Shown here: one piece after another, positions 26,074 to 32,596 of the stretch | How positions within the stretch are numbered: position 1 is the first letter of the stretch | Layout of the letters: each line of letters starts with the position of its first letter | Source of the DNA: Podochytrium sp. JEL0797 | Taxonomy: Eukaryota; Chytridiomycota; Chytridiomycetes; Chytridiales; Chytriomycetaceae | Length of the DNA: 64,000 bases | Direction of reading: 5' to 3' | Assembly: GCA_027596195.1 (NCBI GenBank) | Contig: JADGJG010000012.1 | Span: 43,320-107,319, forward strand | Notes under the pieces: model-generated | What the model was told of the DNA's origin: nothing | The model's database searches: none | Seen by the model: only the letters and a program-made list of their open reading frames with translations | Made by a program: the position numbers and the translations under genes

Positions 26074-27217
26074 ATGTCGAAACCAAACGTGATCGTCACC
26101 GGCGCATCGGGTCTCCTCGGCAGAGCCGTGTTCAAGGCTTTGCAAAGCCATTTCACCGGTAATATCCTCCTTCTTCCCCCTTGTTAACCAGTGGCTGATC
26201 GTGACCCCGCAGTCATCGGAACTGGCTTCTCCCGCGTCCAGGCCCCGCTCGTCAAACTCGACATCACGAACCACGAAGATATCAAGAACTTCATGGATCT
26301 TTACAAGCCTGTGGCAGTCATTCATTGTGCTGCGGAGCGTCGCCCGGATGTTGCCGAAAAGAACCCTTCCGGTTTGTTTCCTTTCTCTTTCGAAGAAGTT
26401 CAACTCCCAATGAACGAGTGAACAAAAGGTGCTCTGATTCTCAACGTGAATGCAGCCGGGTGGGTCGCTGAAGAGTCCAAACGAGTCGGCGCGTGGTTCT
26501 GCTACATTTCGACCGATTACGTGTTTGACGGCAAGAACGCGCCGTACGAAGTCGATGCGCAGCCCTGCCCGATCCAGTTTTACGGCCAATCCAAGTGGGA
26601 GGGTGAAAAGTCGTGTGTTGCGAGCAACCCGGATGCCACGATCTTGCGGATTCCCGTGTTGTATGGGGACGTGGAATTCTTTGGGGAGTCGGCTGTGAAC
26701 TTGTTGGTTCCAATTGTTTTGGTAAGTTGTTGTTGGTTCTTATTGGTGCCTAATTCGTGTTTTGCGTTTCCTTGATTTTCGGTTTTGGTTCGACCCACAG
26801 GATCAATCAAAGAAGGTGATCATGGACGACTTCCAAGCACGTTATCCAACAAAGTGAGTCCCCATTCCTTGGCTCCCAACATCCCTTGCTTACCAGAACT
26901 TCAGTGTCGACGACATCGCCAAGGCTCTCTCCCAACTCGCCCTCCTCTCCCAAACCAACCCCACCATCAAAGGCATCTACCACTTCTGCGCCAAAGAAAA
27001 GATGACAAAGTACGGCATGTGCTCCATCATTGCCGAAGCGTTGGGAGGCGTCGACATTTCTCATTTGGAGCCGTTGAGGGAGGCGGATTTGAAAGCTGTG
27101 GCGAGTCGCCCATACGATTGTCAGTTGTCGAATAAGCGGATCGAGGAGGAAGCTGGGATTCGTATTGAATGCGTTTCGTTCAAGAAGTGGTGGATGGAGA
27201 ATGCACCGAAGCAGTAA
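26074..27217 (+). CDS. MAT2B: methionine adenosyltransferase 2 beta-like NAD(P)-binding protein
   Basis: MAT2B is a short-chain-dehydrogenase-fold regulatory subunit of S-adenosylmethionine synthetase, related to dTDP-4-dehydrorhamnose reductase. Exons give the Rossmann start VIVTGASGLLGRAVFKAL (GxxGxxG), VIHCAAERRPDVAEKNP, YISTDYVFDGKNAPY (Ser/Tyr region), FYGQSKWEGEKSC (Tyr-x-x-x-Lys), ATILRIPVLYGDVEFFGESA, and IKGIYHFCAKEKMTKYGM. Each matches the human protein in order. Five short introns are visible. The C-terminus ends KKWWMENAPKQ-stop. The closely related bacterial RmlD cannot be excluded on fold alone, but the HCAAERRPDV and KMTKY blocks favour MAT2B. Confidence 0.9.
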
Positions 27218-27951: not shown

Positions 27952-30640
27952 TCACACAACCTCTCGTCTCGAAAACAACCCCCTCATCTCACACCCACAC
28001 TCCCCTCCACCCCTCTCCCCAACCCTAAACCCCCCCTCACAACACAAACACCCACCAGCCCCCAAATCCCACTCCAAATCCCCAACCCTCACAACCTGAT
28101 GTCCATACACCCCTTCCCAACTCGGACACACACACACACCCACCACGCGTCGCGATTTGGGGGGCACGACTCTCCACACACTTGCGACGGTCGCGTTATA
28201 CGTTTTAGTCGCGGCCGTGAGGGAGAGTCGGATACGGAGGGAAAGTGTCTCGTGTGTGTTTGTGACATGTGCGAGGGCAATACCGCGCGATTCGGTGACG
28301 CGGAGGGTGAAGTGGTGGGAGTGAGGCCAGGGTTTAGGGGTTGCGAGGAGAAGGTTTGGTGGGGTTGGGTGGTGTGGAGTCGGAAGGTTTTGTTGCATGG
28401 TCTATGGATTTTTTTTGATGAAGACAACACAAGAACAAAATATTCAGTTTCCTCACCAAATTCAACGACCCACAAACCCCCCTCCCAATTAACCCCATAT
28501 CACACATCCCTCTCTCCACAGCATCCCACACAAAATCCACCTCCCCCTCCCCACACCTCCGAAAACAAGCCCCCACCAAATTCGCACTCAAAACCCTCAC
28601 AGTGAATTCAACGCGTCCCAATTTCAACCGATTCCCCCCTCCACTCTCTCCACTCCCAAGGCGATGCATACCGCTTCGAAACACTTTCGATTCACGCACC
28701 GCGGTTTCACGTTCAATCGAAAACGGGATAAGGAGGTATCGTTTGGATTTATCGCGTTCGCCGAGGAAGAGATCAAAGTGGGAGTCACGCCCTTGTCCAA
28801 ATAGACGGAGATCGTGAACAATAGTCGCGGTTTCATCCGTATCCGAAAGCGTGAGAATCACCAGATTCAAGTCGGAATAGTAAAATTCCTCATTGGCTTT
28901 CCCGCGTTTCGTGCGCTGACATAAACTGATGCTAATCCAAGAAGGATCCGGAACCGACAACTCAATAAGATCCATAGGAACCGCCATCCCCTCAGGAAGC
29001 ACACACTCCAAATTCAAGACTTGATGATGCGCATGCGTGAAACACACATCCACTTGCATGAACCGCTGCAGAAAATCATGATATGAGATCCAAAACACAC
29101 CCCCTTGATCCCCCGATCCCGCCTCCTCCCCATTCAACCGCTTGCGTAGACTTGCACTCCACTCAGAAGAATTCACGCCAAACTTGCCCTTCCATTCCAC
29201 TTTCCCCCACGGATTCCTCAGCTTAATCAACCGCAACATCCCATGCTCCGTAACCCCAAACTCTTCCGAATCATCCAACTTGCGTTTCCGCCCACCCCCA
29301 AAATAATCATGCAACGTAGCCACCCGCCCCAAAACCAACCCTTCCTCAATCGACTCCTCAACAACCTGCAACAACGAATACGCATGCCCACCCACCAGAC
29401 CATCCCCAGACAAAGGACACACAGCACCCATCAGAAACCCCTGACTCTGAAACGACATCAACCGCGTCCAAAACAATTCACTGTCGAACCCGACGCCTCC
29501 AAAGCAAATAGACTCGCACGGGAACCCCGTGAGGTCAAACAACGCCTCAGCAATTTGACCACCGCTAATCGCCTTATACGAAGAATGTGCTTTCGCATAC
29601 GCCTTTTCGAGAACAGGAACCCAAATGTTGCCGTTGACCGATTTGGCAAAGTACAAATGAGGCCCCGAGGTGTTTGCCACCGTCGACTTTTTGATCTGAG
29701 CAGGCGGCATGATCGGAAACAAGGAATCAACGCAATATTCACGCCATTTCCCATCGATAAAGAACCGCGCCGTAAAGAATCCCTTCCCCTTGCCCGTCTG
29801 CCGCGGCAACACGCGATGCAACAGCCCAGGATTCTCCGCAATCACAGCCAACGCAGAAATGAACCAACAATCCCCAACCCTTCCCTGCCTTACATGCCCA
29901 GGAGAAAACTCCCCCTCCCGCGAGGCAAGTAATTCCGAATCAAGCCGTTGCCATACAATATCTGCATGTTCTTTCGAATGGCGTGGAGCGAATTGACCCG
30001 TCGTGGGAGCCCACATGAAGAAGGAGCAGGATGTGGTCATGGGGGACGGGCAGGCAAAGAACTTTCGGCCGTGGTTTTTGTTTTCTTTGGATACGGTTTT
30101 GAGGCGGGCGGGTTTGTTGCAGGCGCATTTCGGGGCTGATGGGGTGGAGGAGTGGGTGGCAGTATCTACAGGTGTTTTGATGCCGTCCTTGAAGAAGCGA
30201 TGTCAGAGAATACAGCGACTTAAGTGGGGACGGGAACTCACTATGGCCGAGGCATCCGCTAAGAAGTCTTCATCTTTCCACATTCCACGCAACGGCACTT
30301 CTGGAGCCGCACTGGGCGGATCGCTTTCCGCATCGGGCGAGTCAGAGAAGACCCAGTCGTTCGAAGTCCCCAGCGAGGGGATGCACAGCCCTGATGACCG
30401 TGCGCCGAACGAGCCAGAGATCTTTGGCGAGCATCCGCTGGGAAATGCCTCGCTCTCCCTGGGAAGCAGCTCTGCCTGCAACTCCGGGGGAAGTGCGTCC
30501 CACACAGAGGGATCCACGCCAGGCGGGCGAAGCTTCGTTTCCTGCGATAGAGGATTGGCTGCCGCAAGTTCCGCTTGGATGTCGGTGGGGAGACTGATCC
30601 AGTCTTCCCACGAGATGTCGCTGGGTTTCGAAAACGCCAT
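27952..30640 (-). CDS. calpain-type cysteine protease with two UBM-like motifs and a GRF zinc finger
   Basis: N-terminal exon: two ubiquitin-binding-motif-like segments, DISWEDWISLPTDIQAELAA and GVDPSVWDALPPELQAELL, each with the Leu-Pro core of UBMs in translesion polymerases. An intron of about 60 bp (GTGAGT...CTTCAAG) joins SAI to DGIKTPVD in frame. A GRF zinc finger follows: KCACNKPARLKTVSKEN, GRKFFACP, SCSFFMWA (Cys-x-Cys, GR-x-F, Cys-x-FF-x-W). Then the calpain core: VRQGRVGDCWFISALAV (catalytic Cys), DGLVGGHAYSLL (His) and LIKLRNPWGKVEWKG (Asn). Next come a domain-III-like beta region and, after an intron ending ATCCATAG, a last exon with another beta region ending FSRREVV-stop. Roughly 850 residues. 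All three catalytic residues are present. No penta-EF-hand is seen, so calcium regulation is not implied. GRF fingers bind single-stranded DNA or RNA; UBMs bind ubiquitin. Confidence 0.9.
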
Positions 30641-30847: not shown

Positions 30848-31988
30848 TCACACACCCACTGTATACACCAGAAAATCGCGTCTCCCGAAATACTGTATCG
30901 CGAGCTTGCGTCCTTCGATTGTGGGTTGCGAAAACGCGATGCGATCCTTTTCCAAGCAACAACCAAACAGAAACCGCCGCCTGAGATTTGGAAAGAAAAA
31001 ATCAGATTTCGATATTGAGAAACGTATCTGCTGGGTCAATATACCTGCACACATCCAGCATCTTCAACGCGATTCCTTTTCGTCGATGATTTTTGGAAAC
31101 CCACACGCGACTGATTCCACACACTGCCGGTTCCGAAACGCCCCAGTGACTATGGCAAACAAGAGTGAGAACATGCTGTCATGACAATAAACACACTCGT
31201 TTACCTAGTAACCATCTCGGAATTCTCGTCCTCCAACTCGCGATCCGCAACATTCAACCGAAACGCCTGCTCAATCGGCTCCGCAAGAACGCAACCCACC
31301 ACTTTTCCCTTCGCAACATACAGGATCAGTTTACACAGGTCCAAAGACTCTTGGGAAACAGCCACAGCGCCAAGCTCCTGATTCACGATCGCCACAATCT
31401 CGGCCACCTTGCGCTTCTGGGCAACCGACATGGTCGAGGTTATGGCAACAACAATGAGCTTCACTCTTCCCGATTCAGTCAGAAATTCTTCGGCAATCAC
31501 ATCGTGCGCGTATCCCTGAGAATTTCGGGGTGAGTTCAATGTCCGAAACTACAACACCAAAACAAAGCAAAAACACCCCACCAAACCTTATAATCAATGC
31601 CCCCCAACACAGACGCATGATACTTCAAATGCAACACGTCATCCTCCTTGGCCGCATTCGCAAACCGCATCCCACACTCTTTGCACACAGTCATGCCTGC
31701 GTTCTTTTGACCGAGATCGAGAACCGTCTGGACGAGACCGCGGGGCATTGACGAGGAGGGTGTTTTGCAGACAGGGAGATCGGAGTTGCGTGAGGATCGC
31801 GGTGTTTTGGGGCTCGATGTGGGATGGCAGGTTGTTGCGGGGGACGAGGGCGGGTGATGAGGATGTGTGGGTGGGGTGGGTCCAGTGGAGGAGGGAAAGG
31901 CACGCGTAAAGAAGGAGGTGATGGGTGGGTTCGAGAGTGTTGGTTTCTTGCGGTGCGGAGTTTCGTGCGGAGGATGGCTGCGTTTCAT
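30848..31988 (-). CDS. ECO1: cohesin acetyltransferase Eco1/ESCO
   Basis: Acetylates Smc3 to establish sister chromatid cohesion in S phase. The N-terminal disordered region contains NPPITSFF, close to a PCNA-interacting PIP box (Asn instead of Gln). The C2H2 finger is CKECGMRFANAAKEDDVLHL with HLKYHASVLGG. Later exons give LILYVAKGKVVGCVLAEPIE. After splicing comes the acetyltransferase core CGISRVWVSKNHRRKGIA, then the family C-terminus DRIAFSQPTIEGRKLAIQYF, then FLVYTVGV-stop. These match the ESCO blocks CGISRIWV, IAFSDPTPDG and QFLVY. Three introns are readable. The gene is divergent from ERV1 with 60 bp between start codons, and lies just upstream of the calpain on the same strand. Confidence 0.92.
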
Positions 31989-32048
31989 TTTTTGGCTTCG
32001 GAAAGAAGTCTCGAAAAACGAACCACGTCAGGACCAGATCGAATTCAA

Positions 32049-32596
32049 ATGGGAACCACAAACGACCCCCAACTCGGCCCAGACGGGAAACCCTGCGGAG
32101 TCTGCGACGGATTCAAGAGCTTCTCATCAGATCAGAAGAAGAAGACTAAGAAGAAGGGTGATCCCTCTACTACAGCCACTACTGCTACTGCCCAGTTGCC
32201 ATGCCCACCAGACTCGAAGCAGCTGGGACGACACACCTGGACATTCCTGCACACGATGGCTGCTTATTACCCAGACAGTCCCACACCCGCTGAGCAGCAG
32301 AATGCCTCCACCTTCATGCACTCCTTCTCGAAACTCTATCCCTGCTCTTACTGCGCCGTCCATCTGCAACAAGAGATCAAAAGGGCTCCTCCGAAAGTCT
32401 CTTCGTCAAAGGAATTCAGTCTGTGGTGAGTCTGCTTCAGGATGCATGGGCCGCGATCCCAATGTTTTCACTTTTGAACCGAATTTCCCTCAGGATGTGC
32501 GAAGTCCACAATGAAGTCAACGAACGCATGGGAAAGCCACAATTCGATTGTTCCAAGGTGTTTGAGAGATGGCGCGACGGTTGCAAGGACAAGTGA
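32049..32596 (+). CDS. ERV1: FAD-linked sulfhydryl oxidase Erv1/ALR
   Basis: Oxidises Mia40 in the mitochondrial intermembrane space for disulfide relay import. The N-terminal shuttle pair is KPCGVCDGF. After a Lys-rich linker (KKKTKKKGD) comes the core: [19 protein letters not shown], then the redox pair [10 protein letters not shown]. Across one intron follows [20 protein letters not shown], the FAD-binding Cys-x16-Cys helix, ending DGCKDK-stop. Length, about 155-160 residues, fits the family. The Lys/Thr-rich linker between shuttle and core is typical of fungal Erv1. Confidence 0.95.

Follow-up and report, generated by a model that had tools for sequence, protein, structure and literature searches.

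A predicted chytrid calpain with UBM-like motifs and a GRF zinc finger nested in its protease core

The window is a 64,000-nucleotide stretch of a 107,319-base contig from the genome of Podochytrium sp. JEL0797 (24.4 Mb in 995 contigs), a chytrid of the Chytridiales. It contains a predicted three-exon gene on the minus strand, running from 30640 to 27952 and encoding 859 residues. The gene and its parts were placed as follows.

27952..30640, minus strand: whole gene, encoding two UBM-like motifs, a calpain core with an inserted GRF finger and a SOL-type C-terminal region
30242..30640, minus strand: exon 1 (residues 1-133), containing the two UBM-like motifs and the start of the protease anchor motif
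30554..30619, minus strand: UBM-like motif 1 (residues 8-29), degenerate, with Leu17-Pro18
30461..30526, minus strand: UBM motif 2 (residues 39-60)
30182..30283, minus strand: anchor segment at the start of the calpain core (residues 120-135), split by intron 1 and parted from the remainder of the core by the GRF finger
30188..30241, minus strand: intron 1, 54 nucleotides, GT..AG, at the SAI/DGIK junction
28457..30187, minus strand: exon 2
30008..30133, minus strand: GRF zinc finger (residues 152-193), inserted in the protease core, with four conserved Cys and a net charge of +7
29042..29983, minus strand: calpain core, Peptidase_C2 match (residues 202-515)
29867..29869, minus strand: catalytic Cys240
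29384..29386, minus strand: catalytic His401
29213..29215, minus strand: catalytic Asn458
27952..29056, minus strand: C-terminal region (residues 511-859), interrupted by intron 2, homologous to that of CAPN15/SOL and including a C2-like beta-sandwich
28402..28456, minus strand: intron 2, 55 nucleotides, GT..AG
27952..28401, minus strand: exon 3

Upstream on the same strand, a frame at 31536-32027 carries the zinc finger of an ESCO acetyltransferase, a cohesion factor (zf-C2H2_3, 49.6 bits), and is apparently continued by a frame at 31201-31548 that is without a Pfam match. On the plus strand, the frame at 31794-32429 encodes an Erv1/Alr sulfhydryl oxidase domain (76.2 bits); this frame overlaps the ESCO-type frame opposite, while the matched domain itself lies clear of it. 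A further plus-strand frame (26858-27217) gave an RmlD substrate-binding match of 42.3 bits. No tRNA or Rfam RNA was found in the window or under the gene.

From its N-terminus the predicted protein reads UBM-like motif 1 (8-29), UBM motif 2 (39-60), anchor (120-135), GRF finger (152-193), core (to about 515) and C-terminal region (511-859). An earlier note, made from the DNA sequence, had joined the N-terminal exon and the protease into a single gene, and both the splice junctions and the orthologs bear this out. The SAI/DGIK junction lies within a conserved motif, D..F....S.DG, in which the Asp and the Phe are invariant and the Gly is conserved to at least 90% among 28 aligned relatives, and the second junction is also spanned by sequence conserved in orthologs. 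Orthologs from Rhizoclosmatium (P0002, 64% identity) and Obelidium (P0003, 61% identity) each cover 100% of the 859-residue model, and full-length orthologs containing UBM, GRF and calpain were found in several chytrids, showing that the fusion is not absent from related species. It could be argued that the UBM exon belongs to another gene than the protease, and the joining of exons in the window is indeed a prediction; however, with the junction placed inside a conserved motif and with orthologs that align from end to end, a splice artefact was rejected and we give this explanation almost no weight.

The deposited protein of the same gene, P0001, shares 93% identity with 75% of the model and has an identical SAI/DGIK junction. 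The two differ because P0001 was derived from its own gene model, which stops early and lacks a portion of exon 2 lying between GRF finger and catalytic Cys; the predicted three-exon model of the earlier note fits the orthologs better. P0001 carries the public name 'dek1', which its domains do not support. DEK1 has a long transmembrane part and LamG ahead of its protease. Pfam detected no DEK1-type domains ahead of the protease in the window protein, where only about 120 residues precede the core.

The protein is assigned to calpain family C2, with a CysPc fold and, as the earlier note had stated, an intact Cys-His-Asn triad. It scored 193.7 bits against Pfam Peptidase_C2, and the alignment of relatives identified Cys240, His401 and Asn458 as the catalytic residues. 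Five acidic calcium-site positions were checked by motif, using a numbering (106, 331, 333, E302) that we take to be that of classical calpain. Four of them are lost in the window protein, which has H, V, G and V where the classical calpain P0213 has D, D, D and E; E302 is kept. Across 99 GRF-calpain rows the Asp at position 106 (the first) is kept in 58 and that at position 331 (the fourth) in 75, and the Glu at 333 is also missing from the SOL proteins P0047 and P0053. CAPN15 is reported to be calcium-dependent (PMC12805371). The losses would be in keeping with a non-calcium switch in these chytrids, but they are not a trait of the GRF-calpain family. A weak nuclear-localisation-like signal, RKRKLDD, was noted within the core at residues 433-439 (29270-29290, minus strand); P0002 to P0005 have KRK at this place.

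The GRF finger scored 52.8 bits against a Pfam cut-off of 25.9, confirming that a full finger is present, and in a six-frame search of the genome, which gave three GRF matches, the window gene was alone over the cut-off. Across 28 relatives its four Cys hardly vary, and its nearest solved relatives are the fingers of NEIL3 (E 2.8e-19) and APE2 (E 0.002), both DNA repair enzymes. GRF fingers bind single strands and need not distinguish RNA. The finger of the window protein is predicted to bind nucleic acid. The earlier note had placed it ahead of the calpain core; it is instead assigned a position inside the core, within the PC1 part. This nesting rests on motif spacing and structural alignment, because the MAFFT alignment did not line the anchor up. 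The distance from the anchor has a median of 71 in GRF-calpains versus 12 in other calpains, with overlapping ranges (23-210 and 6-215); these values come from the 71 of 101 GRF-calpains and the 95 of 117 other calpains in which the spacing could be measured.

The two Leu-Pro-centred segments at the N-terminus had been read as UBM-like, and a check for a Pfam-level score had been suggested. The Pfam UBM profile gave 20.0 bits in the window protein, below its cut-off of 23.3, and in the six-frame search it returned three genomic matches, none over the cut-off, of which the window gene was the best (E 0.008). When the first 65 residues were compared with solved structures, five of the six listed matches were UBM chains of REV1, Pol iota or HUWE1, at weak E-values of 0.015 to 1.0. 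Pfam UBM was listed in eight of the 28 members of the first alignment, with E-values up to 1; among ten relatives scanned singly it was listed for P0021 and P0169 only, and not for P0016, P0019, P0027, P0121, P0122, P0124, P0130 or P0156.

A separate profile was built from five solved UBM fragments only. It scored motif 2 at 25.7 bits and gave 18 matches of at least 6 bits among 218 proteins, with none in ten shuffled sets (best 5.2 bits), which rules out motif 2 as a chance match. The 27 best domain matches of this profile all lay in the N-termini of GRF-calpains or of P0010 and P0012, two chytrid orthologs without a detected GRF; nine of the 27, at 2.2 to 5.3 bits, are at or within the shuffle range and count only through position and motif. 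Within motif 2, Val46, Trp47, Leu50, Pro51, Leu54 and Glu57 align with V1019, F1020, L1023, P1024, L1027 and E1030 of REV1 UBM2, such that five of the six REV1/Pol iota UBM2 residues listed as contacting ubiquitin in the available part of PMC8468184 are kept and the Phe is replaced by Trp. Motif 2 is 45-60% identical to its counterparts in five aligned chytrid orthologs, and the stretches flanking it (28-40 and 61-95) are 8-34% identical. These results indicate a Leu-Pro-centred helix-turn-helix with known ubiquitin contact residues, for which ubiquitin binding is predicted.

Motif 1 stands differently, and here the proposal of two UBM-like segments held only in part. It is degenerate and scored 2.2 bits with the five-fragment profile, which puts it among the nine matches in the shuffle range; it is 42-58% identical in three of the five aligned chytrid orthologs and absent from P0005 and P0007. 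A regular expression for the UBM matched twice in six chytrid rows (one of which, P0001, is the window gene itself) and once each in P0005, P0007, P0010 and P0012, and had no match in the chytrid rows P0004 and P0175. A structure model of the Rhizoclosmatium ortholog P0002 (mean pLDDT 80, pTM 0.80) places one pair of helices at motif 1 (H10-15/H18-28) and another at motif 2 (H46-51/H54-61). We therefore treat motif 1 as a putative UBM on the basis of its position, its orthologs and the helix pair in the ortholog model.

The C-terminal region relates the protein to CAPN15. When 13 selected GRF-calpains were compared in this region with nine SOL proteins, hhalign gave a probability of 99.4% (E 7.4e-22, 238 columns), against at most 0.2% in ten column-shuffled controls and at most 0.3% over all shuffled and reversed controls; the region of the window protein alone gave 94.3% (E 1e-7, 113 columns). 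In the second of two phylogenetic trees the GRF-calpains and the SOL/CAPN15 proteins came out as sister clades (supports 100/93 and 96/97). The first tree contained 75 rows and grouped ten chytrids with a support of only 63. For the second, 20 rows were removed as long, of odd composition, redundant or unneeded (the chytrid P0175 among them), P0146 was restored and P0199 was added; the SOL/GRF split was the same in both. With one long-branched classical calpain as the root, and without known DEK1 or CAPN7, the window gene did not fall inside the SOL clade. Pfam found no NZF/RanBP-type zinc fingers in the window protein, and for this absence of N-terminal NZF fingers it is filed as a sister rather than a member of SOL. 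The two share a sister-clade core, a homologous C-terminal region and N-terminal ubiquitin-binding modules (those of the window protein being predicted), whereas CAPN15 has NZF fingers and no GRF insertion where the window protein has UBMs and a GRF finger within the core. The GRF-calpains P0146 and P0199 have an NZF-like finger at their start and may connect the two architectures.

Mammalian CAPN15 was reported to be ubiquitin-directed in December 2025: it acts on the ubiquitinated E-cadherin-catenin complex, a membrane protein complex, leaves untagged substrate uncleaved, and does not rescue the knockout when deficient in ubiquitin binding (PMC12805371).

Ubiquitin readers were then compared across a GRF-calpain set of 101 rows, comprising 98 in which a GRF was recognised by Pfam label (91) or regular expression (79) together with the window gene, P0010 and P0012; the window gene enters twice, once as the window model and once as P0001. 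A reader was detected by profile or motif in 69 of the 101 rows and none in the remaining 32. UBM was found in 21 rows, UBA in 31 (partly by construction, the profile having been trained on 11 calpains of the GRF clade, nine of them in the set), UIM in 16 by regular expression or Pfam (shuffling expectation 1.05 of 98) and NZF-like fingers in three. No row among the 101 combined UBM with UBA, and the double readers were P0149 (UBA and UIM) and P0138 (UIM and NZF-like). Outside the set, the UIM expression matched 16 of 119 calpains, at least P0038, P0039 and P0161 of which lie within the GRF clade of the 75-row tree, and NZF-like fingers occurred in 75 of the 119, SOL calpains included. In the second tree the UIM rows formed one clade (100/98), and UBM turned up in two places, one made up of the chytrids plus P0122 and the other a distinct group that includes algae. 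This distribution would suit an old UBM that was later exchanged for other readers, gain and loss being indistinguishable, and suggests a constant GRF-calpain core around which the ubiquitin reader was exchanged across the family, several algal relatives included.

In 15 of 99 rows a SUMO-motif-like sequence precedes the protease (in 200 rounds of shuffling, mean 0.4, maximum 3), and 30 of the 99 have one at some position (mean 2.2, maximum 7). It is not specific to GRF-calpains, because 15 of the 119 calpains that lie outside the set have it too, including the SOL proteins P0047 and P0051. The single match in the window protein, at residue 577 in the region modelled as C2-like, was not credible and was rejected. 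Pfam found no PBZ finger in the window protein; among relatives, P0157 and P0206 have a PBZ finger, P0025 and P0126 a CCHC zinc knuckle and P0160 an Smr domain.

Calpains with a zf-GRF have been listed since 2012-2015 (Zhao 2012, PMC3563603; Rawlings 2015, PMC4631099; also PMC13413365), and in some of them, from Ostreococcus and Micromonas, a UBA_4 precedes the GRF. The window protein shares the GRF and the calpain family with these proteins of algae and other protists. The earlier statement that no characterised protein of this order was known accordingly needs narrowing: the pairing of GRF and calpain was on record, whereas UBM and fungal members are unlisted in the available portions of the three surveys, which also do not mention a nested GRF or a SOL kinship of the C-terminus. 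Relative to those portions, what appears to be new is the UBM, the nested finger, the fungal members, the SOL kinship and the exchange of ubiquitin readers.

SPRTN, Wss1 and GCNA couple a protease to DNA binding and to readers of ubiquitin or SUMO, a logic that they share with the window protein, whose DNA role is presumptive. They are metalloproteases (SprT/WLM) and it is a cysteine protease; because Pfam found no SprT or WLM domain in it, it could only work like these enzymes and not be one of them. NEIL3, whose GRF fingers are the closest solved relatives, pairs GRF with an NZF ubiquitin-binding finger but is a DNA glycosylase, not a protease. According to the available parts of the literature, most of the DNA-protein-crosslink proteases reviewed can bind ubiquitin (through UBA or UBZ) or SUMO (PMC7782752), and SPRTN is affected by DNA and ubiquitin jointly (PMC12279946). 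By term count, the word calpain is absent from the main text of PMC7782752 and of PMC10815813, and no calpain with this role was proposed in the titles and opening abstract lines of the matches listed for crosslink, protease and calpain. The genome holds two WLM (Wss1-type) loci with three matches over the cut-off, and no SprT-like place over the cut-off in a search blind to introns. Replacement of Wss1, which the earlier note had allowed for, was rejected as unlikely on account of the two WLM loci, and any crosslink role would be beside Wss1-type proteases.

We propose that the window protein is a ubiquitin-directed calpain tethered to nucleic acid, most likely at damaged or replicating DNA, which works like SPRTN or Wss1; we put the probability of this reading at roughly 0.45. 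In this model a ubiquitinated substrate would be captured by the N-terminal UBMs, exposed single-stranded nucleic acid would be bound by the GRF finger that sits within PC1, and limited cleavage of the substrate by the calpain would follow. The likeliest site would be damaged or replicating DNA, presumably in the nucleus, and the substrates would be trapped or crosslinked proteins, such that the enzyme would act in the manner of SPRTN/Wss1 but with a different protease, beside Wss1. Placement of the finger within PC1 makes a direct switch by nucleic acid possible. The earlier note's suggestion that a protease is recruited to ubiquitinated proteins on nucleic acid is supported, without its 'in place of Wss1' clause; the kinship with ubiquitin-directed CAPN15 and the exchange of readers strengthen its ubiquitin half. 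Arguing for the proposal are the domains and triad, the UBM contacts, the NEIL3/APE2-like finger, the SOL kinship, the reported dependence of CAPN15 on ubiquitin, the readers in 69 of 101 rows, the ubiquitin or SUMO binding of most reviewed crosslink proteases and the four lost calcium-site positions, as well as features of relatives that the window protein does not share, namely the SUMO-motif-like sequence (15/99) and the PBZ of P0157 and P0206. Against it stand the 32 of 101 rows without a detected reader, the unspecific SUMO-like motif, calcium-site losses that are not a family trait, Wss1-type proteases in the same genome, relatives with CCHC or Smr that fit RNA at least as well, and the reported CAPN15 substrate, which is a membrane protein complex.

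That substrate bears on an alternative in which the protein is a ubiquitin-directed signalling protease of the CAPN15 kind that has no part in DNA or RNA processes, its UBMs selecting substrates and its GRF serving as a structural or protein-binding zinc module. The sister relation and shared C-terminal region fit such an enzyme, as does the action of CAPN15 on ubiquitinated E-cadherin-catenin. However, the finger of the window protein is strongly basic (+7) with four Cys that are nearly invariant in 28 relatives, and the PBZ in two relatives points to chromatin, so that we regard a purely signalling protease as unlikely, albeit a serious contender. If the nucleic acid were RNA, the protease would serve ubiquitinated proteins on stalled ribosomes, mRNPs or RNA-protein crosslinks; the CCHC knuckles of P0025 and P0126, the Smr domain of P0160 and a finger type that need not discriminate against RNA are consistent with this, but the nearest solved GRFs are those of NEIL3 and APE2, the nearest solved UBMs come from REV1, Pol iota and HUWE1, and PBZ is again found in two relatives, all of which makes an RNA protease improbable. 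A role in cytokinesis or microtubule organisation, as was proposed for calpains at large in 2026, seems very improbable indeed: zf-GRF calpains are listed in the comparison of calpains and cell division in PMC13413365, but the main text of that paper contains neither the word ubiquitin nor CAPN15, its available part gives no GRF-specific evidence, and the accessory domains of the window protein are predicted ubiquitin and nucleic-acid readers.

Through the window protein and its relatives, the kinship of ubiquitin-directed calpains, reported for mammalian CAPN15, reaches fungi and several algal groups, and on the proposed reading the job discussed for SPRTN, Wss1, GCNA, FAM111 and DDI enzymes (PMC7782752, available part) would gain a cysteine-protease candidate. 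The swapping of readers around a constant GRF-calpain core amounts to a natural experiment that hints at the module's necessary function, and the nested finger suggests a direct route by which a calpain could be activated by nucleic acid. A broader proposal, which we consider rather doubtful, is that GRF-calpains constitute an ancient calpain-type class of proteases for DNA-protein crosslinks (or for protein on nucleic acid), sister to CAPN15, that would read ubiquitin (some lineages SUMO or poly-ADP-ribose as well), carry a nucleic-acid sensor in the core and be switched jointly by tag and strand, in chytrids perhaps in place of calcium.

A six-frame profile search of the 24.4-Mb genome located three calpain places, the window gene included. 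The second (L002) is a partial C2 match (profile positions 70-146) in a 476-residue frame, and the third (L003) is a 47-position match broken by two stop codons.
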